Under the pieces are notes generated by a model that saw only the letters and a list, made by a program, of their open reading frames with translations, was not told the DNA's origin and made no database searches. From an uncultured Planctomycetaceae bacterium (GTDB taxonomy: Bacteria; Planctomycetota; Planctomycetia; Planctomycetales; Planctomycetaceae), in contig CAIOKE010000296.1 in the NCBI GenBank assembly GCA_903858815.1, forward strand, positions 1 through 61,421: DNA of 61,421 bases. Direction: 5' to 3'. Made by a program: the position numbers and the translations under genes. Below are positions 28,960 to 59,013 of this stretch, piece by piece (the stretch's first letter is position 1; every line of letters begins with the position of its first letter).

Positions 28960-29829
28960 TCAAAAAGCGATCTTTTCCGGCAAGTACTTGCCGATCAGTT
29001 GTTCATAGTAGGGTCGCAGCTGCCTCCAGTCCGGTGGCGTCGGACATTTCGAATACAGGTCATATGGATTGAACTTCCGCACCCACGGCAACATCTGACG
29101 GTCATGGTTGTCACACAACCAGTCATACTGTTCTTCACGATGCCATGCATAGAACGAATGATACCGAATCATGTACAACGCCGGCTCGGGCAGATACGGC
29201 TTCAGCACATGATACAGGTACTCGTCATGCCCCCACGACAGCAGGACATTCCTGAGCCCACAGCCCCGTTCGTAGATGCCGTGCTCACTACTGAGCACCG
29301 GGTCGAGCACATCCGGGTTCTCGGTGAAGAATTCACTATAGACAATCCGGTCGCTGAAACGACACCCCACGGGGAACGTATCGCCCACCACAGCCCACTG
29401 CGGTTGCCCCCACAGACACAACACCTTGCCCAGATCATGCAGCAGACCCGTCAGTACAAACCAGTCTTCATGCCCGTCTGCGCGAATCGCTTCGGCACAC
29501 TGCAGCAGGTGCTGTAACTGGTCCAGTTCAATGTCTGGATCAGAATCATCCACCAGCGTATTGAGAAAATCGAGCGCCTCGAAAGGACTCATGACCTGCC
29601 GCTGCAAACCCAGAAACTCACCGCGTTTACGGCGTACAAATTCGAGCGACTGAAACCGATGATTCTGCCGGTAGAACTCCCGCACCGTCTCCCGACCAGG
29701 ATTGTCGTAGTTGCGGTAGTCGCTGCGAGCCTTCTGCCCCGGTTCAGGATACACCTGCTGAACCACAAACTCCTCCACCGCCTCACCAACAGCATGTGCC
29801 TGCCCCGGCGACGATCTGTGCTCAGACAT
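28960..29829 (-). CDS. Myo-inositol oxygenase
   Basis: A 289-residue non-haem di-iron enzyme that converts myo-inositol to D-glucuronate with O2. It aligns throughout with animal MIOX, and all six iron ligands are kept: H107, H131 and D132 (LLHDLGK), H201 (WGHDEY), H224 (RYHSFYAWH) and D257 (PYDLYSK). The PQWAVVGDTFPVGCR segment is almost identical to the animal protein. A GAGGAG Shine-Dalgarno sequence lies 8 bp before the ATG at 29829. MIOX is mostly eukaryotic, with sporadic bacterial occurrence. No inositol transporter or uronate isomerase gene is adjacent. The protein is likely cytoplasmic; lateral acquisition is plausible but not shown by this sequence alone. Confidence 0.95.
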   Translation of the reverse strand: MSEHRSSPGQAHAVGEAVEEFVVQQVYPEPGQKARSDYRNYDNPGRETVREFYRQNHRFQSLEFVRRKRGEFLGLQRQVMSPFEALDFLNTLVDDSDPDIELDQLQHLLQCAEAIRADGHEDWFVLTGLLHDLGKVLCLWGQPQWAVVGDTFPVGCRFSDRIVYSEFFTENPDVLDPVLSSEHGIYERGCGLRNVLLSWGHDEYLYHVLKPYLPEPALYMIRYHSFYAWHREEQYDWLCDNHDRQMLPWVRKFNPYDLYSKCPTPPDWRQLRPYYEQLIGKYLPEKIAF

Positions 29830-30022
29830 CAAAGACACTCCTCAACCCGTGCCCAACTCAACCCAACCGACCGGTCTCAGTCTAACACACCACCCCCGAA
29901 CACCCCAACCGTACCTTTGGCTTCAGCCCGAGCACCACTCCGCCACCTACTCACCCGCCTGCCCACTAACGTCAGCCCCATATGTAGCCCGAGCATTCCC
30001 GACGCCGAGGAAAAAACGTAGT

Positions 30023-30990: not shown

Positions 30991-33204
30991 TCACAGCCGA
31001 GCTCGGCCGGAAACTCCCCGACGCTCGGCTGATGCTGGAGCAACCTCGCGCGACTGAGGCTTCGTCGCTCGCCAGAATGACGCGCGACGCACTGCTGGCT
31101 CAACAACCGACGCTGGCGCAGCCACTCGCTCAGACTGCACCGCCGCAGAACGCTGCGGAACGCTCTGCGTCACGACCTCGGACTGACCAGCCATTTCAAC
31201 CTTTGCACCACCCTCCGTCGCTGCAGCCTCGGGAAGTTGCGGCCCCGGACCACCACTGCGGCCTTTGTCCTTCGCAGGAGCCTGACCGGCGTCCGCCTGC
31301 GTCTCGGTCGGCTGCTCATGCACCCGCATATCCTTGTATTCCAGCAACGATCCCTTTTCAAAATGCACGTTCTTCAGAGCAATCGCGTACTCAGCTCGGG
31401 CTCGGAAAAACTGCGCCTCAGCTGCATACATCCGTCGCACCGCGTCAATCCGCCGGTCATCCGTCGAATCATCCCGCGCCTCGATCGCTTCACTGTATCG
31501 CCGCGCTGCCAGATACTGCTCCAGACTGTCCTGCAACGCCTGCCACGTCCGCTCACGATCCGTCCACGCACCGGACAGACTGCTCAACACCTCACGCTGC
31601 TGCTCACGCTGCACTGTACGCTCACGCATCAGATTCAGTTCCGCATGCGAGACCGCAGCATGCGCTCGACGGAATCCCAGCGGTACGCTGAACTCCACAC
31701 CGACCGCCCACTCCTGATGATCACCCGTCCCAAGATTCCCCAGCGAGGTATCCGGAGCACCACCCGAGGCCACCCCACCACCGGCAAACGTGTCGCCAAA
31801 CCCGCGCACACGATAACGACCCACCGCATCCAGCTGCGGCTTCAGGTAGTTCTTCGCAGCCACCAGCTCCAGCTCACGCTTCTTTACCGCCAGATTCTGA
31901 CGCTGCAGTTCAGGGCGCCGCTGCAACGCTTCCTCTGTCACCAGCTCCCAGCTGAACAGAAACTCGGCCATCGTCGGCTCGTCCAGCGGACGAATCACGT
32001 TGCCGTCCGCTGCCGGTAACCCGGTCAGCAGCCGCAGACGACGCTCGGCCGCCAGCACACCACCTCCACTCTGCAGCGTCCCACCCGGAGAACCGTTACG
32101 TACCTCCGTGCCATTCAGCAGCCGACCATACAAAGCTTCTTTCACCTCGTTCCGCAGCTGCAGCACCTGCTGGCGAACCCACGCTTCATCCACCGCATTC
32201 ACACTGCTGGGACCTCCACGCTGCTGCTCAGCCTGACGCACCAGCTCGTACTTCTCGTGATACAGTCTAGCCACGGAATCATAAGATTTCCTCAGGGCGT
32301 CATAGTTCCGCCACGCAGAGTACAGATCCCAGTAACCATTCTCCACATTGCTGACGTAATCCCGCAGCGACGCCTGAAAATCGGCGTTCGTCATGTCCCC
32401 ATTCACTCGCGCTATCAGGATCCCATTGTAACTGCCCGGCAGACCACCCGGACCCGCAATCCGATTGAATTCACTGCCACTGCCCTGCAGCAACGGCTGA
32501 CGAACCTCGCCCTCAACAGCCGTGTTCCAGCCACTGCGAAATGTGTTCGCCGGAGCATTGTTGCTGTCAAAATCCGCCAGACTGCGCACCGCCACCTGCG
32601 ATCCAGCAACCGTCCGCTTCGATAACTCCATCTTGTAGTCGTGAAAGTCCTGCAGAAAACTGTTCGTTCCGCCCGCGTAAAAACTGTTGTTATACAAACG
32701 GTCGTTGCGGTTGAAATTCGCGGTCGCCGATAACTGCGCATCAAACGCACTCAGGGCCGCTTCCCGACCCGTACGCGGATCCACCTGCTGTAACTGTCGA
32801 TTCACTGTCGACATCGCCGCATCCGGAGATCGCAGCACTACGCCGCCAATGTCCCGCAGAATTCCCGACGAACGCAGGCCACGCGACATCACGTCCGCTA
32901 AAGACTCGTCACGCCAGCACTCACCACGCTCCAGATCCTGCACTGACACCGGCTGACGCGGAGCACGCAGATCGCCAGAGACCATCACGCCGCCACGGTC
33001 AATCGCCGTACTCAGCCCAGCCACGCGCCGAGCTGTCGCAACAGGACCGTCATCATTCAATCCGCCAACGGCACACGGCACGCCAGACCCGGATACCCAC
33101 GCAACGCCCGCCAGCACCACCCCGAAACACACAGGCACACGCGGCCGAACGGGGCGCAGCAGCAACCCTCTCAGACCACCCAGCAATCCCGTGCGCTCCC
33201 ACAT
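30991..33204 (-). CDS. TolC-family outer-membrane channel protein
   Basis: A 737-residue outer-membrane efflux protein, longer than a typical TolC (about 450-500). A basic, hydrophobic N-terminus is consistent with export. Two TolC-type repeats can be seen: a first helical-hairpin/beta unit around residues 230-340 (VENGYWDLYSAWRNYDALRKS, VDEAWVRQQVLQLRNEV) and a second around 430-620 (RRPELQRQNLAVKKRELELV, MRERTVQREQQREVLSSL, YAAEAQFFRARAEYAIAL). The last 110 residues are Pro/Ala/Glu/Gln-rich and probably disordered. It is divergent from the HlyD-HlyD-M50 operon and most likely supplies its outer-membrane exit duct. Start chosen at the ATG at 33204; no strong Shine-Dalgarno sequence. Confidence 0.85.
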   Translation of the reverse strand: MWERTGLLGGLRGLLLRPVRPRVPVCFGVVLAGVAWVSGSGVPCAVGGLNDDGPVATARRVAGLSTAIDRGGVMVSGDLRAPRQPVSVQDLERGECWRDESLADVMSRGLRSSGILRDIGGVVLRSPDAAMSTVNRQLQQVDPRTGREAALSAFDAQLSATANFNRNDRLYNNSFYAGGTNSFLQDFHDYKMELSKRTVAGSQVAVRSLADFDSNNAPANTFRSGWNTAVEGEVRQPLLQGSGSEFNRIAGPGGLPGSYNGILIARVNGDMTNADFQASLRDYVSNVENGYWDLYSAWRNYDALRKSYDSVARLYHEKYELVRQAEQQRGGPSSVNAVDEAWVRQQVLQLRNEVKEALYGRLLNGTEVRNGSPGGTLQSGGGVLAAERRLRLLTGLPAADGNVIRPLDEPTMAEFLFSWELVTEEALQRRPELQRQNLAVKKRELELVAAKNYLKPQLDAVGRYRVRGFGDTFAGGGVASGGAPDTSLGNLGTGDHQEWAVGVEFSVPLGFRRAHAAVSHAELNLMRERTVQREQQREVLSSLSGAWTDRERTWQALQDSLEQYLAARRYSEAIEARDDSTDDRRIDAVRRMYAAEAQFFRARAEYAIALKNVHFEKGSLLEYKDMRVHEQPTETQADAGQAPAKDKGRSGGPGPQLPEAAATEGGAKVEMAGQSEVVTQSVPQRSAAVQSERVAAPASVVEPAVRRASFWRATKPQSREVAPASAERRGVSGRARL

Positions 33205-33766
33205 GGATCAAATCCCCGGCTGAATTCAAGAAAAATCCGACCCCACCCTGGGACCGTTTCCTGCAAGACGGCACACCCATCCGGAAAATCCCCTATTCTC
33301 AGTTTCATCGGCACGATCGAAACCCAATTCAATCAAAACACCGTGAATCCCTGCGCCACAATCGGTGCCAGCCACACAAACCGCCCCACTCCCCCAAATT
33401 CCGAGCCCCCGCCGCAAATCTCGCCTCCGATACCCTGTTCCCAACACATCCGCCCAAATCCCACACCCCCGACTGCCGTTATTAATGCTATCACCCTCTC
33501 AATCGGTCCCCCTGAGGCATCACTGTTTGAACACCGGCACAACCCCTAACCCGTAGCCCAAGCATTCCTGCCCGGCACAACCCAAACCCGTAGCCCGAGC
33601 TTCACCCCGGGAAACAACTCCACAAAAACTAAAACACCAAACCTTCTCCAGGACCCGCACCAAGCCGAAACCCTCGGGCGACCTACACCACTTACACGTA
33701 ACTAACACTCGAGCCACCGTCTGATCCCGTCCTGACCACTCCGTCACAAAAGACCCTGACCCCGCA
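33205..33766. other. Divergent intergenic region with a family-B repeat
   Basis: This 562-bp gap separates the TolC gene from the adaptor operon and must hold both promoters. Bases 33551-33600 contain a degenerate family-B hairpin (CCCAAGC-ATTCCT-GCCCGGC) and a partial second copy. I cannot assign promoter boxes and see no gene. Confidence 0.55.
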
Positions 33767-35230
33767 ATGAATGCCCCCGGTGACAACCAGACGCACACCC
33801 CCGGCCACGGGAACTCCGGCTCTTCGCCGGACCCCGCATACCGGACTCTGATCGCCGAACTGGAACTGCTGCAGGCCCTGCACCTGCTGACCCAAACACT
33901 CACTCACGCGACTTCCCCCGCCGCCGTCCACGACACACTCGCTCAGGATGCCGCTGTTCCACTGCAGGCCTCCCTTGCACTGGTCTGTCAGCGGACCGCC
34001 ACAGGTCAATGGACTGCCGTTACCGGACCGGGTGGCGCCCAGATCAATCAGCGTGCCGATGCCGTACAGGACATCCTGAGCTTTGTCGCCCAGCACAGCA
34101 CCACACGCCCCTGTGTGTCCGACGGCCCCCCCCACCGACTGTGCCTGCCACTCAGTCCTCCGCAGGATAACTCCCGGCCACAGACAGTCCTTGTCCTCGA
34201 AGCCACCACACCATGGACAGCGCGGCGTATTGAACTGGCCAGCACCGTTGCACACTACGCCATGCTGACACTGCAACACCGCCCCAGCCAGCCCGCGGAA
34301 TCGGATCTGACACAAAAGCTTCCTCACCCCCCTGCGCTCAGCTCCGGCTTCAACATTCGGAATCGGCGAGTCCAGCTTGTCGGCGGTCTGTTGCTGCTTT
34401 CCCTGTTGCCACTTGAGCTCAGAATCCCGGCCAGCGGACTGCTCGAACCGGTTCAGCGACAGCGGCTTTATGCGGCCGAATCGGGACTGGTCACCGAACT
34501 GACTGTCAATGACGGGGCCACGGTCGTCCCTGGCGATGTCCTCGTCCGACTCCGCAGTGATGAACTCGAACTGCAGCAGGCTGAACTGTTTGGTGCGCTT
34601 GCCGAAGCCCAGGCGCGGCTCGCAGCACTCGAATCTTCAGCAGCCCGAGGATCAATCGGTACTGCTGCGCTGACTGTCGAGTCCGAACAGGCCGAACTGC
34701 GTGCTCGCATCCTGTCACTGGAACAGCAGCGCAGTGTCCTGCAGCGCCGACTTGACTCGCTGGTCCTGCGTGCCACCGCAGCCGGTACCGTGGTCGGTCG
34801 CGATCTGCAGCAGCGATTTATCGGTCGCCCTCTGCTGCGCGGACAGTGGCTGCTGGATGTCGTCCCTGCCGACTCGCCCTGGCAGCTGCAGCTGGATGTG
34901 GCCGAAACCGATCTGCGACATGTGCTGCAGGCATTTGCCACTGCCCCCGCGGCATCCCGCCACGTTACGGTCAGTTACTTCACCGAAACAACTCCGGAAC
35001 GCCAGCTGCAGACAACTCTTGCCAGCATCTCCAGCGCCGCCGAGCTCAGTCCGCGTGGCGAACTGCAGACTCGACTGACAACAACCGCAGCACCGGCCAC
35101 CTCCGGCGAACGACCGGGGGTCGGAGTGCAGGCCAGCGTCCATTGTGGTCGCAGGCCACTGCTGTACATCCTGCTGCGTCGTGCCTTTGACTTTGTTCGG
35201 CGGACAGCCTTGCTTCAGGGAGTTTACTGA
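33767..35230 (+). CDS. GAF-domain HlyD-type membrane-fusion adaptor
   Basis: A 487-residue inner-membrane protein with an unusual layout. Residues about 45-170 are predicted cytoplasmic and have a GAF-like order (LAQDAAVPLQASLALVCQ, RLCLPLSP, QTVLVLEATTPWTARRIELAST ending in a helix). A single membrane helix follows (201-220). The periplasmic part then shows a half lipoyl motif (YAAESGLVTELTVNDGATVV) and a coiled coil (270-335). It ends with a beta-barrel adaptor segment and a short hydrophobic C-terminus. It thus couples a ligand-sensing type domain directly to an export adaptor. It is the first gene of an operon, 3 bp before the second adaptor. The ligand, if any, is unknown. Confidence 0.75.
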   Translation: MNAPGDNQTHTPGHGNSGSSPDPAYRTLIAELELLQALHLLTQTLTHATSPAAVHDTLAQDAAVPLQASLALVCQRTATGQWTAVTGPGGAQINQRADAVQDILSFVAQHSTTRPCVSDGPPHRLCLPLSPPQDNSRPQTVLVLEATTPWTARRIELASTVAHYAMLTLQHRPSQPAESDLTQKLPHPPALSSGFNIRNRRVQLVGGLLLLSLLPLELRIPASGLLEPVQRQRLYAAESGLVTELTVNDGATVVPGDVLVRLRSDELELQQAELFGALAEAQARLAALESSAARGSIGTAALTVESEQAELRARILSLEQQRSVLQRRLDSLVLRATAAGTVVGRDLQQRFIGRPLLRGQWLLDVVPADSPWQLQLDVAETDLRHVLQAFATAPAASRHVTVSYFTETTPERQLQTTLASISSAAELSPRGELQTRLTTTAAPATSGERPGVGVQASVHCGRRPLLYILLRRAFDFVRRTALLQGVY

Positions 35231-35233
35231 GCC

Positions 35234-36367
35234 ATGCGGCAGAACCTGCAAACCTCGCGGTTTCACTGGACATTGTTACCCGCCCTGATCCTGCTCAGTA
35301 CGGCGGCCACCACACCGGCTCAAACCATCCCCGCCAAAGCCGCCAACCCACCCCGCATCACGGCTCGTGCCTGCCGCGTGCAGCCCGGCGATGCCGCTGA
35401 TCTGCCGGCCCCGGAACGCGGACCACTACTGAAGCTGCTGGTAGAGCAGGGCAGTGAAGTACGAGCGGGCGACCTGCTGGCGGAACTTGATCAGGAAGAT
35501 GCTCTGCTGGCACTCAAGCTGGCCGAACAGGAACTGCAGGCCGCCACTCAGAAGCGAGCCAGCAGTCGACTGTCACAGGTGGCTGCTGCCGCTGTACAGG
35601 AAGCTGAACGACAGGCCGAACAGGCCGCACTGGATGCCGATCAGGCCCGGCAGTCCGCCGATGATCCGTCAGCAGTCCGCCTTGCCGAAGCAAAACTCTC
35701 CGAAGCCACTGCCGCACTGCAGCTGGCCGATGCCAGCCGCAAAGCGTCCGCCCGCAGCGTCAGTGAACGCGAATTCCTGGCCCTGTCTTCACAGCGCGAG
35801 CAGGCTGCGATTGCCGTGCAGCAGGCTCAGCATGAAAAAGCCCTCGCCGCCATCAAAGCCCGTTCACTGGCCAAAGCGACCGAACAGCAGCAGGCCGCTG
35901 TCGCTCGACTGAAGCTGCTGCTGGAAACCGCACGCGGTACGGAAGACGCCGAAACACAGCAACTGGAAGTCCTCCGCACCACCGTCGAAATCGCTCGGCA
36001 GAAAGTGCAGCGACGACGCCTGATCGCCCCCTTCGATGGTATCATTACCGAACGATGCAAAGCCGCCGGTGAATGGCTGGAACCCGGTGAACCGGTCCTG
36101 CGGCTGATCCAGACACGTCGCCTGCTGATCGATGGCGTTGTTTCCATCAGCGAATCACAGCAGCTGCAGCCAGGACAGACCGCTGCCGTCCGCATTCCTG
36201 TGGCCACCAGCAATCCCGGCCCGCAGGAGACCGTGACAGCCAAACTGATTTTTGTCAGCCCCGAAGTCGATGCACTGAACGATGCCGTGCGCATCCGCGC
36301 AGAAGTTCAGCAGCCACCACACTGGCTCCGCCCGGGCGCTCAGGTGCTGCTGGAGATTGTTCCATGA
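35234..36367 (+). CDS. HlyD/RND-type periplasmic adaptor protein
   Basis: A 377-residue exported adaptor. Signal region LLPALILLSTAATTPAQ. A lipoyl half motif (LLKLLVEQGSEVRAGDLLAEL) precedes a long alpha-helical hairpin (about 90-250, rich in EQAALDADQAR-type heptads). The second half motif is RRLIAPFDGIITERCKAAGEW, followed by a beta-barrel (LIDGVVSISESQQLQPGQTAAVRI). Such proteins bridge inner-membrane pumps to TolC channels. The gene lies 3 bp after the GAF-HlyD gene, and its TGA overlaps the next ATG by 4 bp, so translation is probably coupled. No ABC or RND pump gene accompanies it. Confidence 0.9.
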   Translation: MRQNLQTSRFHWTLLPALILLSTAATTPAQTIPAKAANPPRITARACRVQPGDAADLPAPERGPLLKLLVEQGSEVRAGDLLAELDQEDALLALKLAEQELQAATQKRASSRLSQVAAAAVQEAERQAEQAALDADQARQSADDPSAVRLAEAKLSEATAALQLADASRKASARSVSEREFLALSSQREQAAIAVQQAQHEKALAAIKARSLAKATEQQQAAVARLKLLLETARGTEDAETQQLEVLRTTVEIARQKVQRRRLIAPFDGIITERCKAAGEWLEPGEPVLRLIQTRRLLIDGVVSISESQQLQPGQTAAVRIPVATSNPGPQETVTAKLIFVSPEVDALNDAVRIRAEVQQPPHWLRPGAQVLLEIVP

Positions 36368-38655
36368 GCACCGGGGCAGGCCTTCCCGAACGCTCGGCAG
36401 GTGGTGGAATTCCGCTGCGTCTGCGCCCCGACCTGCAGATCTCTGCCGTCAGGACAATTCACGGGCAGGGCTGGCTGCTGCGTGATCCCCTGCGACTGTC
36501 CTACTTTGAAGTCTCACCAGCCGGACTGCGCTATCTGCAGCTGCTGAACGGCTGGCGTTCGCTCAGCGATCTGCTGCAGGCCCTGCAGACTGAATTTCCC
36601 GATGACGTCATCTCCGCGGACGATCTGCAAATCCTGCAGCGAGACGCCCTGCAGGCCGGACTGCTGCAGACCATCTGGCCACGTCGCAGTCTGCTGTCAG
36701 CAGCCAGCGATCGATCGCCGCAGGCGGACACACAGACTGGTCCGCAGGCGATTGCCAGCACGGATTCCCTCACTACTGCTCGCCGCCTGCTGTCGCGCTG
36801 GGGACTGTCACGGCTCAGTTTTCGCTGGCGCGGTCCGGATCCGACGCCTTTGCTTGACTGGCTGGTGCCACGACTGCAGCGATTCAGGCACCCGCTGCTG
36901 AAACCCGCACTGCTCAGCTTTGTACTGATGGCCTTTGTGGCCGTCCTGCTCTCAGCCCGACAGCTGCAGGCCGAGTTGCCGGATCTGTCAGCCCTGCTGA
37001 CGGTCACCAATCTGCTGGCACTGGGCACTGCCATCACAATCGCCCGCATCCTGCACGAACTGGGTCATGCCGTCGCCTGCCGCTGGTATGGCGGGGAATG
37101 TCATGAGCTGGGAATCACCATGATTCTGTGTTTCCCGCTGCTGTACTGCGACGTCAGTGATTCGCGACGATTTCCCACCACACAGCGGATCGTGGTCGCA
37201 GCGGCCGGGATTCTGGTTGAACTGCTGATTGCTGCTGTGGCCGCCTGCCTGTGGCTGCTCAGCTATCCCGGTTTCCTGCATGCCTTATTTCTGAACCTGC
37301 TGCTGTTCTGCAGTCTGAATACGCTGCTGATTAACGGCAATCCGCTGCTGCGATATGACGGCTATTACGTGCTGTCAGATCTGCTGGCCATACCCAACCT
37401 GTGGCAGCAGGCCGTGCGATCCGCGGGGCGGGCTGTGGGTCGGCTTGTGCTGGGTCCACTGCGGGCGACGGGTGACGAGCTGCCCGTGAGTGCACTGGCA
37501 TCGACCGGGCTCAGCATCCTTGGAGTTGCCATGGCCTTGTGGCGTCTGTCCGCCACATTGACGCTGCTGTTGATTGTGTATCGCCTGCTGGAACCCGTGG
37601 GCCTCGAGTCAGCGGTTGTCTTCCCGGCATCGGCCAGCGTGCTGCTGGGAATTCCGGCGATGTACAGCGGGTTACAGCAACGTCTGTCGGAAGCCGTCAA
37701 TCCTCGTCGGGCGCAGGTGCGATTATGGGCCAGCCTGTCAGTCTGTCTGTTGTTGTGCTGTGTACCGTTTTCATGGCCTGTCAGTGTACCGTGTCTGTTG
37801 ACACCGGGGACAGCGGCTGCTGTCTATGTCCGCAGTGGCGGGGTGCTGGAGTGGTCGGTCGCGGCTGGTGCAACCGTGCAGGTCGGGGACGTCCTGGCAA
37901 GGTTCCGTAATGCCGAACTGGAACAGCAGCTGGCAGCGGCTGAAGGTGCTCAGTCCCTGCGGCAGGCGACGGTTCGCACTTTGCAGAATCGTCAGTTTAC
38001 GGAACCAGCGGCGGCGGCTGCATTGCCGGCTGCCGAACAGTCCCTGAAAGCGGCGATTGACCGTTGTCAGACACTGCGGACGATGGTGGCTGACCTGACC
38101 CTGTGCAGTCCTCGTGCCGGCATCGTCATGCTGCCACGGAACCTGCCCACTGCCAGCAATCCGGACGCATCATTGCAGGGATGGACTCGCTTTGTCCTTG
38201 ACACCACGACTCGCGGTGGCTGGGTTGAACCACAGACGCTGATTTGTTGGGTGGGTGAACCGAACGATCTGCGGATTATAGCGGTGGCCGAACAGTCGGA
38301 TGTGGAACGGGTGCGAGCGGACATTGATGCTGCGCGAGTCACATTGTTTTCGCGGACAGACTGGCGACTTGTGGCAACGGTGACGGAGGTTGGTACATCG
38401 CCGTTGGAAGTCGTGGACCGGGAACTGATCAGCAGTGGCCTTGTCAGTGCCCGAGCGGACGGATCGCCGGCCCAGCCGTTGTTCCCCGCTGAGCTGTCCG
38501 CAGGTCACTTATTCCAGCAACAGGTCGAGCGTGGCGAAGTCTTACCGCCACTGTATTCCGTCGGTATGGCCCGTCTTCCGACCCAACAGGCATCGTTGCT
38601 GCACCGCACATGGCGCCTGGCCCGCCGCACCTTCCGCCTGCCAGCGCTACCATAA
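36364..38655 (+). CDS. PqqD-like / M50 metalloprotease / lipoyl-domain membrane protein
   Basis: A 763-residue polytopic protein combining three modules. Residues 18-102 resemble a PqqD-type peptide-binding fold (LRPDLQISAVRTIHGQGWLL to LQRDALQAGLLQ). Residues about 180-460 form a site-2-protease-like membrane domain with H231-E-L-G-H235 and N326-x-L-L-R-Y-D332-G-Y-Y. The third part has a lipoyl half motif (GGVLEWSVAAGATVQVGDVL), a short coiled coil and an adaptor-like beta domain. This is the architecture of YydH-type peptide-exporting zinc proteases, and the PqqD-like module suggests recognition of a peptide substrate. The gene starts inside the stop of the preceding adaptor gene. Codon style turns G-rich near 37.4 kb. 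Confidence 0.85.
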   Translation: MSTGAGLPERSAGGGIPLRLRPDLQISAVRTIHGQGWLLRDPLRLSYFEVSPAGLRYLQLLNGWRSLSDLLQALQTEFPDDVISADDLQILQRDALQAGLLQTIWPRRSLLSAASDRSPQADTQTGPQAIASTDSLTTARRLLSRWGLSRLSFRWRGPDPTPLLDWLVPRLQRFRHPLLKPALLSFVLMAFVAVLLSARQLQAELPDLSALLTVTNLLALGTAITIARILHELGHAVACRWYGGECHELGITMILCFPLLYCDVSDSRRFPTTQRIVVAAAGILVELLIAAVAACLWLLSYPGFLHALFLNLLLFCSLNTLLINGNPLLRYDGYYVLSDLLAIPNLWQQAVRSAGRAVGRLVLGPLRATGDELPVSALASTGLSILGVAMALWRLSATLTLLLIVYRLLEPVGLESAVVFPASASVLLGIPAMYSGLQQRLSEAVNPRRAQVRLWASLSVCLLLCCVPFSWPVSVPCLLTPGTAAAVYVRSGGVLEWSVAAGATVQVGDVLARFRNAELEQQLAAAEGAQSLRQATVRTLQNRQFTEPAAAAALPAAEQSLKAAIDRCQTLRTMVADLTLCSPRAGIVMLPRNLPTASNPDASLQGWTRFVLDTTTRGGWVEPQTLICWVGEPNDLRIIAVAEQSDVERVRADIDAARVTLFSRTDWRLVATVTEVGTSPLEVVDRELISSGLVSARADGSPAQPLFPAELSAGHLFQQQVERGEVLPPLYSVGMARLPTQQASLLHRTWRLARRTFRLPALP

Positions 38656-38862: not shown

Positions 38863-39456
38863 TCAATCGCGGTCTGAGCGAACTTTCGAACACGGTGGTT
38901 GTGTCACCAGCCGCACCGGCAACAACGCCACATCCATCGCAAACCAGCCGACCGTGATGAAGGGATTCAAGCCCACCAGCGATTCGCCCGATTCTTCCAG
39001 TGCGGGCTGAGCGAAATACAGCGGCTGATGATGAAACGCGAACGCACCTCGACCCGCCGATAACGGACGACTGCGTGACCCTCCCGGGACCGTCTTCGGT
39101 TCACCCAGATAGTCCGCCCCACTGTCTGATGCCAGCTGCTTTGAAATCAGTTCGTCCAATGCCGGGGCCGCCTCAGCCGCAGCCGGCGCAGTTCCCGCTG
39201 GTGTGACGGGGTGCAGCTTCAGACTACCGATCGGCGCAAACAACGCACCCACCGAGACTCGCGGTTCCCCCCGTCCCTGCGATCCAATCGCTCCGGGTGC
39301 CGTCTCAGTACTTTCTGCCTGCCATGACACCCGCGCCACCGGTTCGGCTGACCCGCGACTGCCCGCACGCATCGGACCCGATGGCTCGTCAGCCACGACC
39401 GACGCTGCTGCCACGACTGCCGCCATTAACCCAATTGTAGCCCCGCATACCTGCAT
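38863..39456 (-). CDS. Small secreted protein of unknown function
   Basis: A 197-residue protein I do not recognise. It has a signal peptide (MQVCGATIGLMAAVVAAASVVA), then a low-complexity Ala/Gly/Pro/Ser-rich part (residues 25-110) and a more ordered C-terminal end, VGLNPFITVGWFAMDVALLP followed by VRLVTQPP, which could be a lipid- or protein-binding amphipathic segment. The frame is open to 39678, but the ATG at 39456 gives the signal peptide, and an AAGGG lies upstream. It lies between the export operon and the giant gene, convergent with the former and divergent from the latter, which makes a part in the same system possible. Confidence 0.6.
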   Translation of the reverse strand: MQVCGATIGLMAAVVAAASVVADEPSGPMRAGSRGSAEPVARVSWQAESTETAPGAIGSQGRGEPRVSVGALFAPIGSLKLHPVTPAGTAPAAAEAAPALDELISKQLASDSGADYLGEPKTVPGGSRSRPLSAGRGAFAFHHQPLYFAQPALEESGESLVGLNPFITVGWFAMDVALLPVRLVTQPPCSKVRSDRD

Positions 39457-39806
39457 GGGAACGCCCTTGTGAGACTTTATGAGCTCAAGGCAACCGAGGT
39501 TCTCAGGAACCACCGCTTTCCGATTATTTCGACAAAAGGGAATGTCTGGATTGGATCGATCTGCAGGAAGAGTACAGGAAAACAGGGATTGAACCTGCCG
39601 GGGAACTGCCGAGATCTCCCCAGCGATTCTTCCCACGAAATCGTCAAACTTTCTGCAAATCTCCACGGCAGAAACCATTGGCGATCGACGAAAACCAGGG
39701 AATATTACCCAGCCATCCCAGTTTCACTGAAAACAGCTGTTCGTTACGCTCCTTCGTCATTCCGGATCTGGCCAGACCGGGATCGTTTGGAAAGGCCGTA
39801 TCACAG
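39457..39806. other. Divergent promoter region of the giant gene
   Basis: These 350 bp separate the small secreted gene from the giant gene. The giant gene's frame is open back to a TTG at 39678, but the peptide there lacks signal-peptide character. I see no unambiguous promoter, repeat or operator. Confidence 0.45.
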
Positions 39807-42800
39807 ATGAGCCTCCGCACATTCTTGTCCAGGGTCCTGCAGCTGCTGAAAGGTGGCAGTGATCCCCAGCCCGCGCCCCCGCCGTCCACTCGGCCTGCCG
39901 CGCGAGCCATTCGTTTTTCGCGGCTGGAAGATCGCCGAGTATTCAATGCCAGCTTCGTCCTGAACGCCGCCGGCCTGACGCTCGACAATTTCACCAGCTC
40001 GGGTGAGCTCAGTGTCAGTGATGGCCCCGGTGACGTGCAGTTTCGACTGGGCTCGGGGATGGGCCAGTGGATTGGTGCCACCGGTCCCGGGATCAGTCTC
40101 CTCGACAATGGCAGCCTGCTGTCGGTCCAGGATTCGCTGCTGCAGAACGGCGGTGCAGCCGGCAACATCAGCATTCTGGCAGACAACGCCAATGGCGACA
40201 TCAACATCAGCCTGAATGATGCCATCCACCTGCAGGGTGGTTCCACGCCCTCCGCGCTGCAGATTCAAACGACCGGCAATGTCCTGCTGGCCCGGAATGT
40301 CATTGCCCCCAATGCCATTCTGGATGCTCCGAATTACCACATCAGCGTGACAGCCAGTGGCCTCGTTGGAATCGAAGGCATTGTGAATGCCCAATCGGTG
40401 ACACTGCATTCCGCAGGTGATGCAATCATCGCCGGGCGAATTGATGCAGAAAACTCAATCCTTGTGGACTCCGCAGCAGAGATCCTTGACGGTCAGAATG
40501 AGCAGATCAGTTTTCGCACTGAGCAGCTGACCCTGAAGGCAGTGAAGGGCATCGGCAATGCTGATACCATTGAAACCGATGTCCGGTTTCTGCAGGCATT
40601 CAATTTGGAATCCGGTCAGATCGACATTACGGAAACCGGTGCACCCGGCAACCTGACCATCGGCCGGATTGACAACCCTGGTCGTTTCGTACGTCTGCAG
40701 GTGATGAACGGCGGACTGGTTGATGGCAATGACGCCGGTGGCCGTCAACTGAACATCGACGCACACGATCTGCAGCTGGAAACTACGGCCGATATCGGTT
40801 CACCAGGAACGACTCCGTTTCCACTCTTCCGCAATCATCTGGAAGTGAGTGTGACGGGTGACCTCACAGCTCAGACGCCGGGCTTTGCCGCATTCTTCGG
40901 TCAGATCGACGGTCAGCTGAACGTGGTTGCTCACGACCTGACACTGGCCTCGGACACAGACGTGGACTTTACTCGCGCTGGCGAATCCATTCTGCAGGGT
41001 GTATCCCTGATTGCAGATGCTGACGGGAACGGCTCCGGGACCGTGCTGATCGCCGAACAGCTGTCGATGCCGGAAAGCCTGCTGCTGCAGGGTGCAGACA
41101 TTCAGGCCAGCGATGGCACGATCGACCTGCAGGCCGGCCGGATCCTGCTGGTCTCTGGTCAGTCAGAAGAACTGCATCTGAATCTGATTCCACTGCAGAC
41201 CGGTGAACTGGGACAATTCGACGGAACGGTCAACGGCAATCTGTCAATCGTCTCGGATTCCGCTGTTGCACTGGCCGATCTGGACGGCAGTGGCGATGCA
41301 CTGCGATCACTGTCCACAACAGGCTCACTGAATCTGACAATCGGTGGTCGAGCAGCGATTAACGGCAAAGTCACAGCAGCAGACAGCGTCACAATTGCGG
41401 CGGCGGATGACCTCGATGTCTTCGGACCCGTCTCTGCCGGCACACGGCTCAGACTTTCCGCAGGATCCGACGGAACCGGCAGCCTGTTCACCAGCAGCAC
41501 GTCCTTCATCGAAGCAGGTGGTCCAGGTCAGCCTGGTGATCTGACACTGAATGCCGGCGATCAGCAGGGCAATATTCAGCTGAACGGCACGGTTAAAGCC
41601 AGTCAGCAATTGACTGCCAGCGCTCCTGGAGGTCACCTCAACGGCAGTGCTGTGCCGTCCGCCCCCATGATCACTCTGACCGCCGGTGCCGGTATCGGCA
41701 ATCTGGCTCCACTGCAGATTATGGCTGCAGACGTGGAAGCCAGCACGGGATCCGACGGCATCTTTTTGAAAAACAGCATTGCCGCAAACTATCGAAGCCT
41801 GACGGCAACCACCGGTGATCTGATTCTGGAAAGTGCCGAAGCTGCCAATGTGATCTCGGCTGTCACAGGGGGTGGCAACATTCGCCTGACGACCGCAGCC
41901 GGCCAGCTACTGGTGCAACAGGCAGTTACAGAATCCGGTGATATCAGTCTGCGGGGCAGCCAGAACGATCTCGTGCTCGTGGGCAACGTGATCGCAAATG
42001 GGCTGATCACCGTCCACTCAGCGACCGCCGTGGCTGAGTTCGACAGTGATGAAGAAGGCGACCTGCAGGCGCTGCAGATCGAAATTTACGCAGCGACTGG
42101 AATTGGTACTGCGGCTAATCCCATCGAAGTGGCCGGACCAGAGATGACGCTGGCCGCTGCCACCGGGACCGGCGACATTCGACTGAACGCATTGCAGACC
42201 ATCGTCATCGGCAGTACTCCCGACCTGCAGGGCCTGATGATCAGGGATCCGGATCAGACAAATCAAAAAAACACGATCGCACTGACGGCTTCCGACCAGA
42301 TACTGCTGGCCAGTGGTATTGAGAATCGAGCAGAGGGGAATATTGAACTTACTGCTGGTGCCGAGATTTTTCAGGACAGTGGAGCGGGGATTTTCACCGG
42401 CGGGTCCGGCAGCATCAATATCACTGCCGGGCTGAGCCAGCAAACGTCGATTCCCGGCAGTTTTGTGATGAACGACGGTGCCATCATCAGTAATCAGATG
42501 GGGCAGATCCGCCTTGTTGCTGGTGCTGACGTCGCCCTTGGTGAGGTCCACAGCCAGTCCGGTAACCTTTACGTCGAGGCCGGATCCAACAACCCCTTTG
42601 GCAGTATTGTTGATAACTCAGTCGCCGAGAATCCGAATCTTTCGACCTCCGGAATCCTGACACTGCTGGCCGCCACCAATGTGGGTGGCCCGGACACAGA
42701 TGCAGATCTGAATCTGCAAGTCAACGGAGTGCAGGCAGCGGCTACCACCGGTGGTATCTATCTGCAATCGGCCAGCTTCCTCCGCATTCTCAGCAATGGA

Positions 42801-45800
42801 CTGCGAACTGCAGGGCCGGCTGGTGACATCCATGTCGTGACAACCAGCGGCGGTCTGGAAGTTTCCGGCAACATCATGGCCGCAGGCTCCGGCCGTATCC
42901 AGCTGATCACAGCCGACGAACTCAAAGTGAATTCGCTGATTGCGTCAGAAACCGGTGACATTTTCCTGACGGGCCGCCGCGTCAGCACTAACAACGCGGG
43001 CAACATACAAACAGGTGGCAGCGGAGCATTGAATCTGACGGCCACGGATGGCGAGATCGTAATCGATCCGTCCAACTCGCTGATCGCTCAGGACGGTGGC
43101 CTCGTTCTGCAGGCCACGGGCAATGTGGTGCTTTCCGAACTGCGTACGGCCGGTAACGTCACTATCAGCTCGGACACAGGCAATGTCTTCGACAACAACG
43201 ACACCACAACACAACGCCGCACGAATATTACGGGCAATGACGTGCGACTGAAGGCCGTCAATATCGGCCAGCAGCCCGTTGACTTCTTCACGGGGCTGCC
43301 TGAGGCACTGGATGTCAGCATCACAGGAGCCCTCAGTGTCGACGTCACCGGCTTTGCTGCTTTGCAGGGGAGAATTGCCACCACTGGAACGCTGTCTGCC
43401 GAAACACTGTTCCTGATGTCAGAACAGAACCTGAACTTCGCCACTCTGAATCCTTCCGTTGTGAATCTGGCCCTGCTGGGGGACGTGGATGGCAACGCGG
43501 ACGGTACTGTGTTTCTGAAGACTGAAGTTGTGGTGCCCGGAAATCTGCGGATCACGGCTGCTGATCTTGATGGGGGCACGGACGGCATTCGTCTGCTGGC
43601 AGAAAACCTGCTGCTGACGTCAGGCCAGTCCGAATCGGCTCGAGTGACGCTGAATGCGCCCGGCACGGGTGAGATCGGCGTCCTTGATGCTCGCTCAAAA
43701 GGCTCCCTGCAGCTGCAGGCAACCACCCCAGTGCAGCTGCGCGACCTTGATGGCGACACGCTTGCACTGGCATCCACGGCCAGCGACGGCGACCTCGTTT
43801 TAAACGCCGCCGGAACCATACTGGTGCAGAACAAACTGCAGGCCGACGGACTCGTAAGACTTTCCACAACCGGCGATCTGTCGGTCAATGCCCCGATTGA
43901 TCCAGACACCGTCACTCTGACTGCCGACGGTGACATCCTGCTGAATAATCAGATCGTAGCCACTCAGCAGATTGTGATCTCAGCCGGAGCTGATGGTGAC
44001 GGAAACCTCAGTTCCAGTGCCGCTGGCAGTCTCCAGGCGGGCAGCGGAAACACCGGCGATATTCTGCTCAGAGCTGGAGACACCAGTGGCTCAATTGAAC
44101 TTCAGGGCCCAGTGAACGCCGGGGCCGGACTGGTCCTCCGCGCCGTTGGAGGGTCGGTCAATGCCTTCAGTCAACTCACCTCTCGAACGCTGCAGATTGA
44201 TGCAGCCACGGGAATCGGGAATCAGACACCACTGCAGGTACAGGCCCACACAATTGCAGCCAATACACTGAGCGGAAATGTCGCACTGTCCAACAGCGTT
44301 GCCGCTGTTTGCACCAGCCTGACCACGTCTGCAGGCAGCCTGTTCTACAGTGGCACTGGCTCCACCGATGTCCTCGCGGCTGTGACGGATGAAGGTGAAA
44401 TCCAGCTGCAGACCGTCGGTGGCAATCTGACGATCGGACAGGTAACCGCCACGGCCGGGTCTGTACTGCTCAGCACATTCGAAACAGGCTCCGTGCTGAT
44501 CAATTCCGCAAGTGCCTCAACGATTCTGCAGGTTGAGGCCGCAGAATCCATCGCTGAAGTCGGTGCAGACAACGATGTCGATCTGCAGGGACAGCAGATT
44601 GGCCTGCGGGCCAGTACCGGAATTGGCAGTGCCGGCCAGGCACTGGAACTGGATGGTCCAGACCTGCAGCTGACGGCATACACAGACACGGGTGACATTC
44701 GACTGCAGGCACTCTCTGGAGTCACTGTTTCCACAGTGATCGAGGCCACGGGGCTGACGATCCGGGATCGAAATCAAACGGGAGGACAGCACCAGATCGA
44801 ACTGGTTTCCAACGCCGCAATCTTCCTTGAAGCCAGCGTTGTGAATAACTCGCTCGGTGATATCCAGTTGCTGGCTGACGGTGATCTGCAACAGTTTGCC
44901 TTCACGTCCGTCAGGACTGCAGGCCTCGGTACTGTCACACTGCGTGCCGGTAAGACTCAGGGGGGAAGCGTCGGCTCAATCGGCCGCAATATGACAATGG
45001 AGGACGAATCACTGATCGACAGCGATCAGGGCAGCATCACACTGCAGGCCACTGGTGATGTCCGGCTGGGAACGGTGCACAGCGCCAGTGGTCGGATTGT
45101 TGCCAGTGCCGGCACAATCACCTCCATCGGCAGCATCTTTGACAACACCCTGACGGAAACAGCCAATCTCGTCACCAGCGGGTCCGTCAGCCTCTCGGCA
45201 ACCGACAATGTCGGCGGTCCCGGCACTGATGAAGACGTCAACTTTGATGCACCACGACTGGAAGCCGTCTCAAACTTTGGCAGCCTGCATCTGCGGTCAG
45301 CCGGCACCGTCCAACTGGAAGGACAGGGACTGCGCACATTCGGTGCGACAGGAAATATCCACCTTGTGACAGATGCTGGCAATCTTGATGTCGCCGCAGA
45401 AGTCCACGCTGCAAACGCCGGAAACATCCGACTGGAGGCCAAAGATCAACTGACGCTCAGCAGGCTGGTGACTTCGCAGTCCGGCTTTATTACCCTCAAC
45501 GGAGCCAGCGTTGCTGCGTCTGCCGACGGAGATGTCAGCACTGCAGGAAATGGCAGTATTGTGCTGAATGCCTTCGAACAGGACATTCTGCTGGACGCAC
45601 AGCAGACGCTTGTCGCAGGCAACGGACTGGTCTCGCTGCAGGCCAATCGCCATATCAGTATTGCAGGAATTCAAACAGCCGGGAATGTCGCGGCCGTTGC
45701 CGTCAACGGTGACATCTTCGACAACAACGACGAGACCACCAGTCGCCGACTGAATATCACGGCAGCCAGTCTGACACTGACCGCAAATGCCATTGGCACG

Positions 45801-48800
45801 CCACCCGACAGCTTCTTCGTCGAACTCCCCAACGGACTGGAAATTGACCTCACCGGCACGCTCACGGTTCAGGCCCAAACCTTCGCTGCTCTGCACGGAA
45901 ACATCAATGGTACCGGTAACCTGACAGCACAGACACTGTTTCTGATGTCCGATCAGGACCTTGTTTATTCCACAGCAGGCACCCCACAGGTCACAAACCT
46001 CGCACTGCTGGCCGACCTTGACAACAACGGTGCCGGAGCTGTAGTCCTCCGGACACCCGTGGCAGTCTCCGGTAACCTGCGTCTGTCGGGCCACGACATT
46101 GACGGCGGTGTCGACGGAATCCGTTTAACGGGCCAGCGCATGCTGTTGCGTTCTGGTTCCAGCGAAGACATCTCCGCTGGTTCCGCATCAACCGTTTTAC
46201 CGCTGTTCCTCGATGCTGCTACCGCCGCCAGTCTTCGCATCACGGCAGTTACTGGCGTGCAGCTAAGCGACCTGAACGCAGATGGTTCAGCCTTCGCATC
46301 CTCTGGCACTACGGGACAGCTCAATCTGACAGCCGGCGATACGATCCATGTCGTCGACAAAATCTTCACGGCTGGCAGCGTCAACCTGAACGCAACGGGG
46401 CAGATTGTGATCGATGGAGCCATCGATCCGGAGACCATCACCCTCACCGCCTCTGACGACATTCAGATCAATAATGCGCTCGTCGCCACACACTTGCTCA
46501 CGGTCACTGCCGGCACCGATGGCACTGGCAGCATCAGTTCCGCCAGTGCCGGAACCCTGACAGCCAGCGGCCCAGGCAACACAGGCGAAATCCGGCTGAT
46601 CAGTGGTGAAGTTTCCGGAGCAATCCAGTTGCACGGCCGAGTCGAATCAGCGGCCGACATGACGATCACCGCCGCCGGTGGCGCAATCAACGGGACTGCA
46701 GAGCTGCTGGCAAAGTCCCTGAGAATGACGGCTGCCACAGGGATTGGAAACCTGAATCCACTGAACATGACCGCTGGTAACGTGGCAGCCAACACAGCCA
46801 ATGGCGATCTGCTGCTGCAAAATCGCATCGCTGCGGTTTACACCAGTCTCAGCACTGGAACCGGCCTGATCAGCGTCACGACTGCGGGCCTCGCCGAATT
46901 CCAGAATGTGCAGACTTCTGACGGTGATATCCGGTTATTCTCTGAATCCGCGGCGATTTTTGTTGACAATGTCAAAGCGGGCTCAACTGATAACACGCTG
47001 CGAATCACCAGTGAGACTCTGTCTGAGCTCAATTCCGACTCTGCCGCCGATCTGACAGCCTCTCACATCATCCTGCTGACCAATCGGGGCATCGGCAGTG
47101 TCAGCAATGCCCTCGAACTCAGCGGATCAGGCCTGCAGCTGACCGCCGGCAGCCAGAGTGGCAGTATTGTCCTGACCGCTGACACCACCGTCGAAGTCGT
47201 CGCTGCTCTGGACCAGAGTGGTCTGCAGACCGGCACTCCCGGACAACCCGCGGGAGGCAACGGCAGTGCAGACCCACAGCTGCTCAGCCTGACGACCACC
47301 GGATCCCTGCTGATCAATGCCGACGTCAGGAACTTCGCCGGCGGCGATGTGCTGCTGCAGGCAGGCGTTCAAATCCAACAGCAAAGCCCAACCACCATCA
47401 CAGCGACTGATTCCGGATCAATTCAGCTGCAGGCAATTGGTGACATTCGACTGAGCACACTGCAGTCCGAGGCCTCCGTGGAGGTGCGCAGCCAGCAGGG
47501 CAGCATCGTCGACAACAATGACTCACCGGGCAATCGACGCACAAACGTTTCGGCCGATTCACTCCTGCTGCAGGCCATCAGCGTTGGCCAGCCCCCGGCA
47601 GCTTTTTTCACCGATCTGCCGGAAGCTCTGGAAGTCTCACTCACGGGCGCACTGTCGGTTGATGTTGCGGGCTTCGCTGCCATTCACGGCACGATCGGCA
47701 CTACCAGTGCACTTCGCGCTGACACGCTGTTCCTGATCTCCGACGAGCACTTGAACCTGGCAGCTGTCTCTCAACAGCAGGTCAACAACTTTGCGGCCAT
47801 TGCAGACCTCGATCGCAATGGAAGTGGAACGATCAATTTCAGCCAGCCGGTTGCGGTCGCCGGCAATCTGCGTCTGCAGGCTGCAGACCTCGATGCCGGT
47901 GCGGAACCGATTCGCGTCAGCGCGCAGCGAACTCTGGCGACATCGCAGCAGTCTGAACTGCTCCTGCTGACCCCTCTGAACATCGGCCCCGGAACTCCCG
48001 GTCAGTTCGATGGCGTCGCCGGTGACAACCTGACTGTCTCAGCCAGCGATTCTCTGGTTCTGACCGATCTGAATGGTGATGGGAATGCTCTGTCTGCAGC
48101 AAAGACCATTCACGCCGATTCGGCTGCAGATCTGCAGGTCGCTGCTCGCATCACCACCACCGAAGAAATCCAGTTACGGGCAACGCGAACGCTGTCCGCT
48201 GACGGGGCTTTGACAAGCCGCGACATCTTTCTGCGCGGTGGTGATATCAATGTCACCGAACGTCTCGCTGCAGCGCGAAACACAATCCTCGAAGCCGGTC
48301 CGGGAGGCGTCGGCGGGATCCGCGTCAGCTCAACGGGACAGATTCAAGCCGGAAATCCGCAGGGAACTGGCAGCATCACGCTGCGCTCCGGCTCCATGAG
48401 TGGCGATATTCAACTGGATGGACTCCTGCAGGCGGGTCATCAGCTGGATGTCACTGCTGGTGGCGGACGAATTGATGGCACCGGACAGCTGGCAGCTCCA
48501 GACATCTCTCTGCACTCGGCCAACGGCATCGGTGGCAACTCATCTCTGCAACTGCTGGCTGACCGGATTGAGGCTGAAACCAGCAAGAGTGATCTCCTGA
48601 TCCGCAATTTACAATCCGGAACCTTTGCTCGCCTCCAGAACCTGACTGGAAATATCGATGCAACCGGTGATGGCGATACTCTGGTACAAACGGCATTCAC
48701 CTCGACCGGAAATATCCGACTGCAGACTGCTGCCGGACAGCTGACGATCGTCAGAGCTGTCGTGAGCACCGCCGGCGATATCCGTCTCAGCACAACTGAC

Positions 48801-52913: not shown

Positions 52914-52953
52914 AGATATTGATTTTTTTCTGTTATTCCAAGGTAGATCAGAC

Positions 52954-58900: not shown

Positions 58901-59013
58901 CCCCCGGCATTCCGCCCCACGACGGCCGCATCATCGCACTGTGCCTGCACCCGGACGGACACCTCGCCTCCGCCGACACCACCGGCCGCCTGACCCTCTG
59001 GCCTCCCCGCTGA
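52954..59013 (+). CDS. Ser/Thr protein kinase with membrane helix, coiled coil and WD40 repeats
   Basis: A 2,019-residue signalling protein. A disordered N-terminus is followed by a Hanks-type kinase: glycine loop AQGGMGIVY (184-192), catalytic lysine K206, helix-C E225, NRD (296-298, instead of HRD) with D298, N303, DWG (316-318, instead of DFG) and APE (347-349). One membrane helix lies near 548-570, then a long Ala/Gln/Glu coiled coil (570-770). The remaining 1,200 residues, probably extracytoplasmic, are WD40-like propeller repeats (LLTAGYDGTVRSWTIE, LLTGGVDARINTWLLP). It starts 41 bp after the giant gene on the same strand, so the two may be co-transcribed. It could sense or regulate the fibre; this is inference. 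Confidence 0.92.
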   Translation: MAGQDQNQPLNQRPFEPDELSTNPTPFSDADALATEQGSGGSGNQPLEIQLDPLATIRESQAPALFSDADATIASAPDDDARLSSTAPPPRSPSPADDAATLVLAADQQLRSETATEVASQPGNGTDGPSRSTWNLRIHSHNVEGQLSGIVNRTNDAALQASPVAAAIAQSASAPEYQILGMLAQGGMGIVYRARQTSLNREMAIKTLKPGQDDPVAAQEMFVSEAVITANLVHPNIVPVHDLGRNAEGKLFYSMKQVSGRDWRKAMPELSREENLDILLKVCDAVAYAHSQGVINRDLKPENVFVGSYGEVIVLDWGLAVVNDRFSRRDSVLISTRGCAGTLAYAAPELFDHDTRRICPQTDVYLLGAILFEILEGFPPHILKSFSQLAGPRQRRDAVFAAVRNNQIEQDVRNSGELMQIALQAMATSPSERFPSVEELQKAIRQYRTTGRAEELLAEVRSSTEKTTSYDQYQQSVALFTEALRLWPSDQRAIAGDRAARRGFAELALRRSDFDLGLEVVADRSESELQALATQLKAGRRRRTIIRTTWLVSSGLAMLLLGLTLIFQLDLQSARRELASANDDIKRADAKRETAEKEAKAAEALVAEAESRKQAADAAAKQAVAGQQAAESARQQAEQDKQTAQKAERDANDARKQAVMLADAANLARKSADEAAAAAMLSQRKAVQELTKANEDKQRVIAESEAITKQARADVAAAEAEVRNQQSLADRVALDSLIQQLEAQQDLREWQALIPLATKALQELEARAAAGRPNPWFTDAVRNSIREKLQQATRQANAPASSARLEFPERTTLAALSDDGLTLVRILRQADQPTAPRLLEFRNTAAPNAPDMADQRLPFNEQSSVDRLLVSKHGAHVAVLLKTGKVLIFSRNQQQQYQQRAEVPLTIAGRPFRTAFLTFSGNEQRLYLAASDRTTSLQILDLTTAQTQPLLQDVALFADPAVDHRCTHFAVSPDEQFLLHYSAEGRDRFIRAFPLVTGTTPGSLQPDSRPEAVTRMNIGQLRIRQPAGDGAGQFLPETLLTLQLTPDGSALILGLNSRSDRRAWAWLPRATAANETEFPFAVGRDDALLESFASADDQLPAFLKVSLDGRRIVAGHLRRRDNLEVWTVQNGRIQSASEFQLHQYEGGGRVSAIVSGQSEAVVDAAFTDGTAGLLTSVDSRAVTHWNLPGYGDFVRERQQLVDEFRRLKKPAAPPAKGNAGPRLPAAGIATPVSLAFEDSEVSTSAVLQDEFRPKFLQRWTSVYSLQFNPVNGRLLVGADDLAAHLLDSNGKPVLSVSSRPDPLREQLTAGTGTQSGGYLTEGHNSNIVATRFLPDGSLLTAENLGVICVWDAQPDADGMGQEKCRLLTGSGGGGFAVSPDGRFVVAGGAELKDPAQPDSGLSARVLVWQSSDFDKSAAPAAFRQLQIEAGSANPEASSVQISSVAVSPAGTLVAAGCRNGQILLWSLQDSTLLDLQRSHREDQITAVCFLNDSTLLTAGYDGTVRSWTIENGQLAAAAILVRGSQILSLEATADGRRFAIIDLQPDAPRGAESATVANSEGTAAQQSAVEQTVAARLRISLHSSDGALQLLLQDRLLAETDSALPLQTALSWSLDGERLLLLQSGRLTVFGGPQWQPLQALQIASEQRVPVRAAIRGGAGQPLQIATVGGREAILWDLQSGQALTRFRSHSSGRLTASQSSDQNVVLTVSDALRMFDVREGSETRGRTLLRVASTDLHQTPLSDARFSPAHGDLRFLSCDQAGELGLWQYREGVLPQLLQRIPAGEQSVPTWAADSGIVNFVSQVAWRPDGQGFAGLQRGVLHCWSIGQQQSNVAGTDPLTALTLPLPAGLDCRFNDLTWSVDGTTLAAGGVAFREADAVLFSAACVWRVTADGARLVAVLQDDPEHERIPATGSGEQPGGITAIALDAAGGRLLTGGVDARINTWLLPPLDVPRDTNTDPDAATADTRLEQLKIWWGVQLEAPGIPPHDGRIIALCLHPDGHLASADTTGRLTLWPPR

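Follow-up and report, generated by a model that had tools for sequence, protein, structure and literature searches.

What could power export, and what would be exported, at a locus that encodes a TolC channel and several HlyD-type adaptors with no ABC or RND transporter beside them? TolC conduits normally receive their substrate from an inner-membrane partner. The window, by which we mean the whole 61,421-nucleotide stretch analysed, is contig C296 of genome G000 (6.39 Mb in 373 contigs; a planctomycete, judging by its named relatives), and the features of the locus within it are as follows.

30991–33204, minus strand: TolC/OEP outer-membrane channel (PF02321, 4.4e-15; hydrophobic segment at residues 23–41 by hydropathy)
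33205–33766, no strand: intergenic region between the divergent TolC gene and adaptor operon (from coordinates)
33767–35230, plus strand: GAF-family HlyD adaptor, 487 aa (HlyD_3, 6.6e-5)
35234–36367, plus strand: HlyD/RND-MFP type adaptor, 377 aa (HlyD_3, 1.2e-17; TIGR01730, 7.2e-32, above cut-off)
36364–38655, plus strand: PqqD-like module, predicted M50 intramembrane metalloprotease and HlyD adaptor half in one protein, 763 aa (NF041824, PF02163, alignment, AF2 model, hydropathy)
36421–36678, plus strand: PqqD/RiPP-recognition-element-like module, about residues 20–105 (weak PqqD match, TfuB1 profile match)
37054–37068, plus strand: HELGH zinc-site motif, residues 231–235 (alignment of 23 homologues)
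37339–37362, plus strand: NPLLRYDG motif, residues 326–333 (alignment of 23 homologues)
38863–39678, minus strand: small protein Y of the PLYFE..LERxG family (Y profile, 5.7e-14; 17 members)
39678–52913, plus strand: giant protein, 4411 aa from TTG, candidate cargo (frame list, Pfam, hydropathy)
39900–39965, plus strand: N-terminal LExR motif RFSRLEDRRVFNASF, candidate export signal (A5 profile, self-inclusive E 7.8e-7)

All four frames named in the original prediction (TolC, two HlyD adaptors and the PqqD-M50-HlyD protein) were found in the frame list and in Pfam and family-model scans of the window. The three plus-strand genes are tightly packed, with a 3-base gap followed by a 4-base overlap, and the predicted arrangement, a divergent TolC gene and an operon of two adaptors and an HELGH membrane protein, was borne out by the frames, the Pfam matches and the intact motif. 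None of the 30 window proteins scanned with Pfam matched an ABC or RND family, which also agrees with the prediction; the RND transporter partner of an RND efflux pump is therefore absent from this set. With type I secretion (HlyB-HlyD-TolC) the locus shares the TolC channel, the HlyD-type adaptors and a candidate cargo that shows no evident Sec signal, but it has no ABC exporter partner nearby, besides its two adaptors it has one that is fused to a protease, and its candidate signal is at the N-terminus of the giant protein, whereas the signal of type I cargo is C-terminal.

The 763-aa protein carries the HExxH and NPxxxxDG motifs and the membrane helices that define the M50 (S2P) family, and is predicted to be a protease. 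Seven hydrophobic segments were recognized by hydropathy. Residues H231, E232 and H235 of HELGH and N326, P327, L328, D332 and G333 of NPLLRYDG were invariant across 23 aligned homologues; in a larger set of 161 homologous M50 frames (those of at least 500 aa, called mechanically, some of them not genes), the pattern HE.[GA]H was present in 158 and the NPLLRYDG-site pattern in 154. The PF02163 match (4.4e-5) was below the model cut-off. The predicted PqqD-like module was recovered at the family level, where the M50 family profile matched TfuB1 in the PDB remotely (6jx3; query 8–103, E 0.0032) and PF05402 (PqqD) matched 4 of the 23 homologues, but the window protein on its own gives a weak match (Pfam E 0.039). 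TfuB1 is a RiPP leader-binding element, and the match to it makes the reading of an N-terminal signal by the M50 protein plausible. The lipoyl domain that had been predicted is not a separate domain: in an AF2 model (pLDDT 82.6), the corresponding stretch belongs to an HlyD-type adaptor half, as judged by fold matches.

The first adaptor (33767–35230) had been described as a GAF-HlyD protein. This description stands for its family, in which PF01590 (GAF) matched 9 of 25 aligned members, but the window protein has no Pfam GAF match of its own. An AF2 model of the GAF-family adaptor (pLDDT 88.1) showed a mixed alpha/beta N-terminal domain, one transmembrane segment (202–220) and then the HlyD part; all of the best 50 matches listed in a fold search were adaptors, and the HlyD parts of both this model and that of the M50 protein matched TolC-partner adaptors. 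Together with the GAF domains of the homologues, the intact M50 site would suit a regulatory unit, in which the giant gene would be under the control of GAF sensing and regulated intramembrane proteolysis while the adaptors and TolC do other work, and a passage of PMC4452313 suggests that the GAF protein acts as a sensor. We nevertheless consider such a unit very unlikely, since the GAF-family protein and the M50 protein each contain a fused HlyD part, which points to a conduit.

The original prediction spoke of a little-described secretion route. The route is uncharacterized, but the underlying module is already published, and export is only its candidate function. According to the relevant passages of Kamneva, Poudel and Ward (2015; PMC4452313), genes for GAF-HlyD, HlyD, M50 and sometimes TolC proteins lie beside a 'secondary SecA_DEAD' ATPase from which the wing-scaffold domain is wholly or mostly missing; SecA was proposed as the ATPase or motor of the module and the M50 helices as a possible pore, cases with an unlinked secondary SecA were also reported, the substrate was unnamed and the broader role was called completely unknown. 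The words 'giant' and 'LEPR' have 0 occurrences in the main text of that paper. As far as these passages describe it, this T1SS-like module, reported in Planctomycetes among others, has in common with the window the co-encoded GAF-HlyD (with GAF undetected by Pfam in the window protein), HlyD and M50-HlyD proteins and the lack of an ABC gene, and a wing-less SecA is present in G000. The window differs in that this SecA is not in the same locus, an adjacent TolC gene points the other way, and the set is joined by genes for an LExR giant and a small secreted protein. Apart from the paper itself, one record of the open-access literature (PMC5313232) contains the words of its title. No paper treating SecA2, HlyD and peptidase M50 together was found in the open-access literature, against which the linkage to a cargo and the association of LExR with SecA appear new, the ABC-less module itself dating from 2015. 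To a module published without a named substrate, the present work adds a proposed class of cargo together with a candidate signal and motor.

The likelier start of the giant protein is the ATG at 39807 rather than the TTG, and from this ATG its N-terminus reads MSLRTFLSRVLQLL...RFSRLEDRRVFNASF. Hydropathy revealed no hydrophobic, signal-peptide-like core at this N-terminus. The Pfam matches of the protein were DUF2345, a weak Fil_haemagg and Amphi-Trp, none above cut-off; no barrel or TPS domain, by which type V secretion (autotransporter or two-partner) would be recognized, was found by Pfam, and no tandem array was found by TRF in 39000–54000. The A5 profile was built from 20 LExR segments of M50 loci, including the window row, hence the self-inclusive E value given above. 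Planc_extracel (PF07595, 'planctomycete extracellular') is likewise a short LExR-bearing motif, but its model does not match the window giant's N-terminus, the likeness being seen by eye and through the A5 profile; in relatives it gave weak matches, below cut-off, to the L139 and L056 proteins. A search for an LExR model in NCBIfam returned only unrelated weak matches. A passage of PMC10952558, the one paper found to name PF07595, lists it among signal peptides, and no connection of PF07595 or LEPR to a transporter was found in that passage or in a search of the open-access literature. The peak 12-residue hydropathy was −0.3 to 1.6 for LExR N-termini (13 rows) and 1.6 to 3.2 for Y proteins (17 rows), against a control median of 1.36. 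The probable start of protein Y is internal to its frame, ahead of a signal-peptide-like segment, and neither the window Y nor two of its cassette relatives matched a Pfam family. Y was considered as a cassette-specific gene and rejected as such, because Y relatives occur in 40/40 genomes, including G018 and G020, which have no M50 protein. A further Y relative lies elsewhere in G000 (G000:C142:28902-29495).

The M50 protein was found in 38 of these 40 genomes, G000 included. The initial HMMs cross-matched because these proteins have the HlyD part in common, and an M50-core profile replaced them for homologue searches. The loci comprised 60 stretches picked around listed matches, the best 80 of 588 loci (all but one from records bearing planctomycete names) and further stretches; two contigs were represented twice (L049/L107 and L072/L175), both copies being counted in the locus counts and one of each left out of the tree. 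Among 67 plasmid records with homologues, none reached 80% query coverage. At least two HlyD adaptors lay within 3.5 kb of M50 in 101 of the 161 M50 frames, and within 7 kb we found TolC at 26, secondary SecA at 21, Y at 17 and LExR at 18. By pattern search, an ABC gene was within 5 kb of a single frame, in contrast to the always adjacent ABC gene that the original prediction had named as fatal to it. This count, set against the 21 frames near a secondary SecA, also makes an ordinary type I system with a merely unlinked ABC gene highly improbable, even with the seven PF00664 matches in G000 from which such a gene could be drawn.

In one M50 subclade, a recurrent gene order was observed: TolC / GAF-HlyD / HlyD / M50 / Y / LExR protein. 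Some parts of this cassette are missing or cut off in some loci, and a complete cassette is present in Rhodopirellula baltica BR-MGV (L181). All 17 Y loci fell into one 42-row M50 subclade with a local support of 99 in a 159-row FastTree tree, which carries long-branch warnings and on which the Y label needs 8 changes. TolC was within 7 kb at 12/17 Y loci, compared with 14/144 other M50 frames. The LExR gene came next in 13 of the 17 Y loci (12 by pattern, and L050 by eye); three without it (L051, L055 and L131) have less than 2 kb of sequence left downstream, and L182, where the cassette is followed by 6.2 kb downstream with no LExR gene, was counted against the model. Six loci have LExR without Y. 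The proposed link with the neighbouring giant gene thus holds, as far as LExR giants are concerned, for one subclade and not for the whole family, in which a pattern search out to 7 kb gave no LExR gene for 143/161 M50 frames. LExR occurred in the first 140 residues of 16/590 genes within 6 kb of M50 and of 1/415 others (1/261 farther from M50 and 0/154 in M50-less loci), compared with shuffled expectations of 0.4, 0.2 and 0.2 for the sets of 590, 261 and 154, and none was found at residues 140–280 in the same gene sets.

G000 has two SecA genes (PF07517), on contigs C199 and C132, and none in the window. The canonical SecA (C199) has SecA_SW. The secondary SecA (C132; 709 aa) has DEAD, P-loop and preprotein cross-linking (PP_bind) domains and conserved ATPase residues, and gave no SecA_SW match at E 1. 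The energy source, which the original prediction had allowed to lie elsewhere, is probably this unlinked gene. The 19 kb stretch surrounding this SecA gene showed no M50, TolC or HlyD gene, and the neighbours of the SecA gene look metabolic by eye. Gene orders in distant families include HlyD-M50-SecA and SecA-HlyD-HlyD-M50. A short second SecA frame in G000 and in all nine relatives in which the cassette was found was counted for the SecA model, and the lack of a secondary SecA within 7 kb at all 17 cassette (Y) loci was counted against it; since SecA is adjacent at none of them, its use by the cassette is something that we infer. The secondary SecA could also act in a two-step route, crossing the inner membrane with SecYEG while the M50 protein only trims and the adaptors and TolC provide the outer-membrane step, an arrangement at odds with the usual feeding of TolC conduits by an inner-membrane partner. 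Passages of PMC4452313 bear on this route in both directions: the canonical Sec translocase is the partner of the SecA2-only systems known so far, but the wing is tied to SecYEG contact. In G000 the secondary SecA has no SecA_SW match, and the canonical SecA has one. Given that the secondary SecA retains the DEAD, P-loop and preprotein cross-linking domains, we regard the two-step route as unlikely yet the strongest of the competing explanations.

The association was then followed in 128 genomes of the phylum, each at least 90% complete. M50 was present in 37, three of which are weak partial matches (G053, G071 and G087). By hand assignment among the matches listed, at least 25 of the 128 have a second SecA, and all 25 have M50. 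This number includes G060, whose real secondary SecA was missed by the search and was added after its M50 locus had been read, so further ones may have been missed. In 12 of the 37 M50-positive genomes, three of them with the weak M50 matches, no second SecA was found among the matches listed, which was counted against the association; of the M50-positive genomes counted as SecA-negative, G043 and G053 showed one long frame each on reading, and the second match of G115 lay outside the reading. The 91 M50-less genomes divide into 65 with at most one SecA match and 26 with two. Twenty-three of the latter were read (G073, G101 and G102 are the others), and in 21 of them one long frame (863–1242 aa) accounts for both matches. 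In G134 there is only a SecA fragment at a contig start. M50-less G052 has two separate long SecA frames of 826 and 904 aa (C158 and C142; L250 and L251), which may reflect duplication or contamination, and was counted as negative.

LExR was found with A5 in 31/40 genomes (E 0.01) and in 17/128 phylum genomes (E 0.003). It was present in 14/37 M50-positive and 3/91 M50-negative genomes (p 1.3e-6) and, with hand-assigned SecA among the matches listed, in 13/25 genomes with and 4/103 without a secondary SecA (p 3.9e-8), these Fisher tests ignoring kinship. Kinship was taken into account in the genus-level version (9/18 with versus 3/83 without a secondary SecA) and in that outside the window's class (8/14 versus 3/102), both again among the matches listed. 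PF07595, an independent model, was found in 25/40 and 13/128 genomes, and its link to secondary SecA among the matches listed was weaker (7/25 versus 6/103, p 0.004, likewise by a test that ignores kinship). Two M50-less relatives among the 40 genomes had no LExR or PF07595 match, which was counted for the association. Counted against it were LExR in three M50-less genomes (G050, G125 and G131), LExR in relatives G021 and G024, which have M50 and no second SecA that was found, the absence of both LExR and PF07595 from 5/40 genomes (G018, G019, G020, G035 and G039), three of which have M50, and the occurrence of Y relatives in M50-less genomes. Overall, the distribution of the LExR motif follows that of the module, although there are exceptions in both directions.

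These distributions also bear on what is exported. In NCBIfam, the M50 core matches best to NF041824, a daptide M50 maturation protease (1.1e-34, but 120 of 300 bits), and daptide and epipeptide M50 proteases with PqqD-type recognition elements share with the window protein an M50 core and an RRE-like module. The operon might therefore export a small RiPP-like peptide or a small molecule, with its PqqD and M50 parts, the former resembling TfuB1, reading and cutting a leader and the giant being a co-regulated neighbour. Unlike those proteases, the window protein is fused to an HlyD adaptor, and its score does not come near the equivalog cut-off. Against a small product, LExR genes are found repeatedly at this position, and from genome to genome LExR goes with M50 and secondary SecA. 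We consider a small exported product improbable, somewhat more so than the two-step route.

The reading that we prefer, with nearly as much belief as doubt, takes the locus to be a version of the secondary-SecA/type-I-like module to which a cargo is linked: a SecA2-powered exporter that would read the LExR N-terminus, trim the cargo with M50 and release it through TolC. The giant protein would be made without a Sec signal peptide, and the PqqD/RRE-like module of the M50 protein, on the cytoplasmic side, would bind the basic LExR N-terminus of the giant. Pushed by the secondary SecA (C132), the chain would cross the inner membrane either within the M50 membrane bundle or next to it, and the intact M50 site would probably trim the giant's N-terminus during passage. 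In the periplasm, the two adaptors (GAF and free) and the HlyD half of the M50 protein would make up a ring that joins TolC. The stricter version, a dedicated one-step system of Planctomycetota in which a wing-less SecA drives giant adhesin-like proteins, whose N-terminal LExR signal is read and clipped by a PqqD-type element on an intramembrane protease, through a channel made of the protease-adaptor hybrid, the GAF and free adaptors and TolC, is a possibility that we advance more cautiously, at perhaps one chance in three. If true, the proposal would explain how planctomycetes export giant proteins without ABC exporters, and SecA would join the motors that drive TolC conduits.

Several minor observations were made on the same gene families. 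G000 encodes a second M50-HlyD protein (L007, 13201–16727; G000:C77) with a single adaptor, no TolC and an unrelated neighbourhood, and homologues from eight relatives cluster with it. In G021, a genome without a secondary SecA, a frame close to an M50-HlyD gene (L062) looks by eye like an RND pump. At L211, L217 and L225 a secondary SecA is directly beside TolC, and no M50 was found in those stretches. The canonical SecA of G000 (L208, 5900–9200) has two stretches that match the wing-scaffold domain; a passage of PMC4452313 reports that this domain is rearranged in planctomycetes. Further LExR frames in G000, at G000:C197:5825-5887 (3146 aa) and G000:C4:2173-2232 (499 aa), are on contigs other than those with M50 homologues found, and G007 has a 4484-aa LExR frame on contig C11 with a Y relative beside it. 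In the window, a 2072-aa frame (52795–59013, plus strand) that combines a protein kinase domain with WD40 repeats overlaps the 3′ end of the giant gene by 119 bases, and a myo-inositol oxygenase gene (28960–29838, minus strand; PF05153, 4.9e-106) adjoins a PSCyt/PSD1 cytochrome gene.
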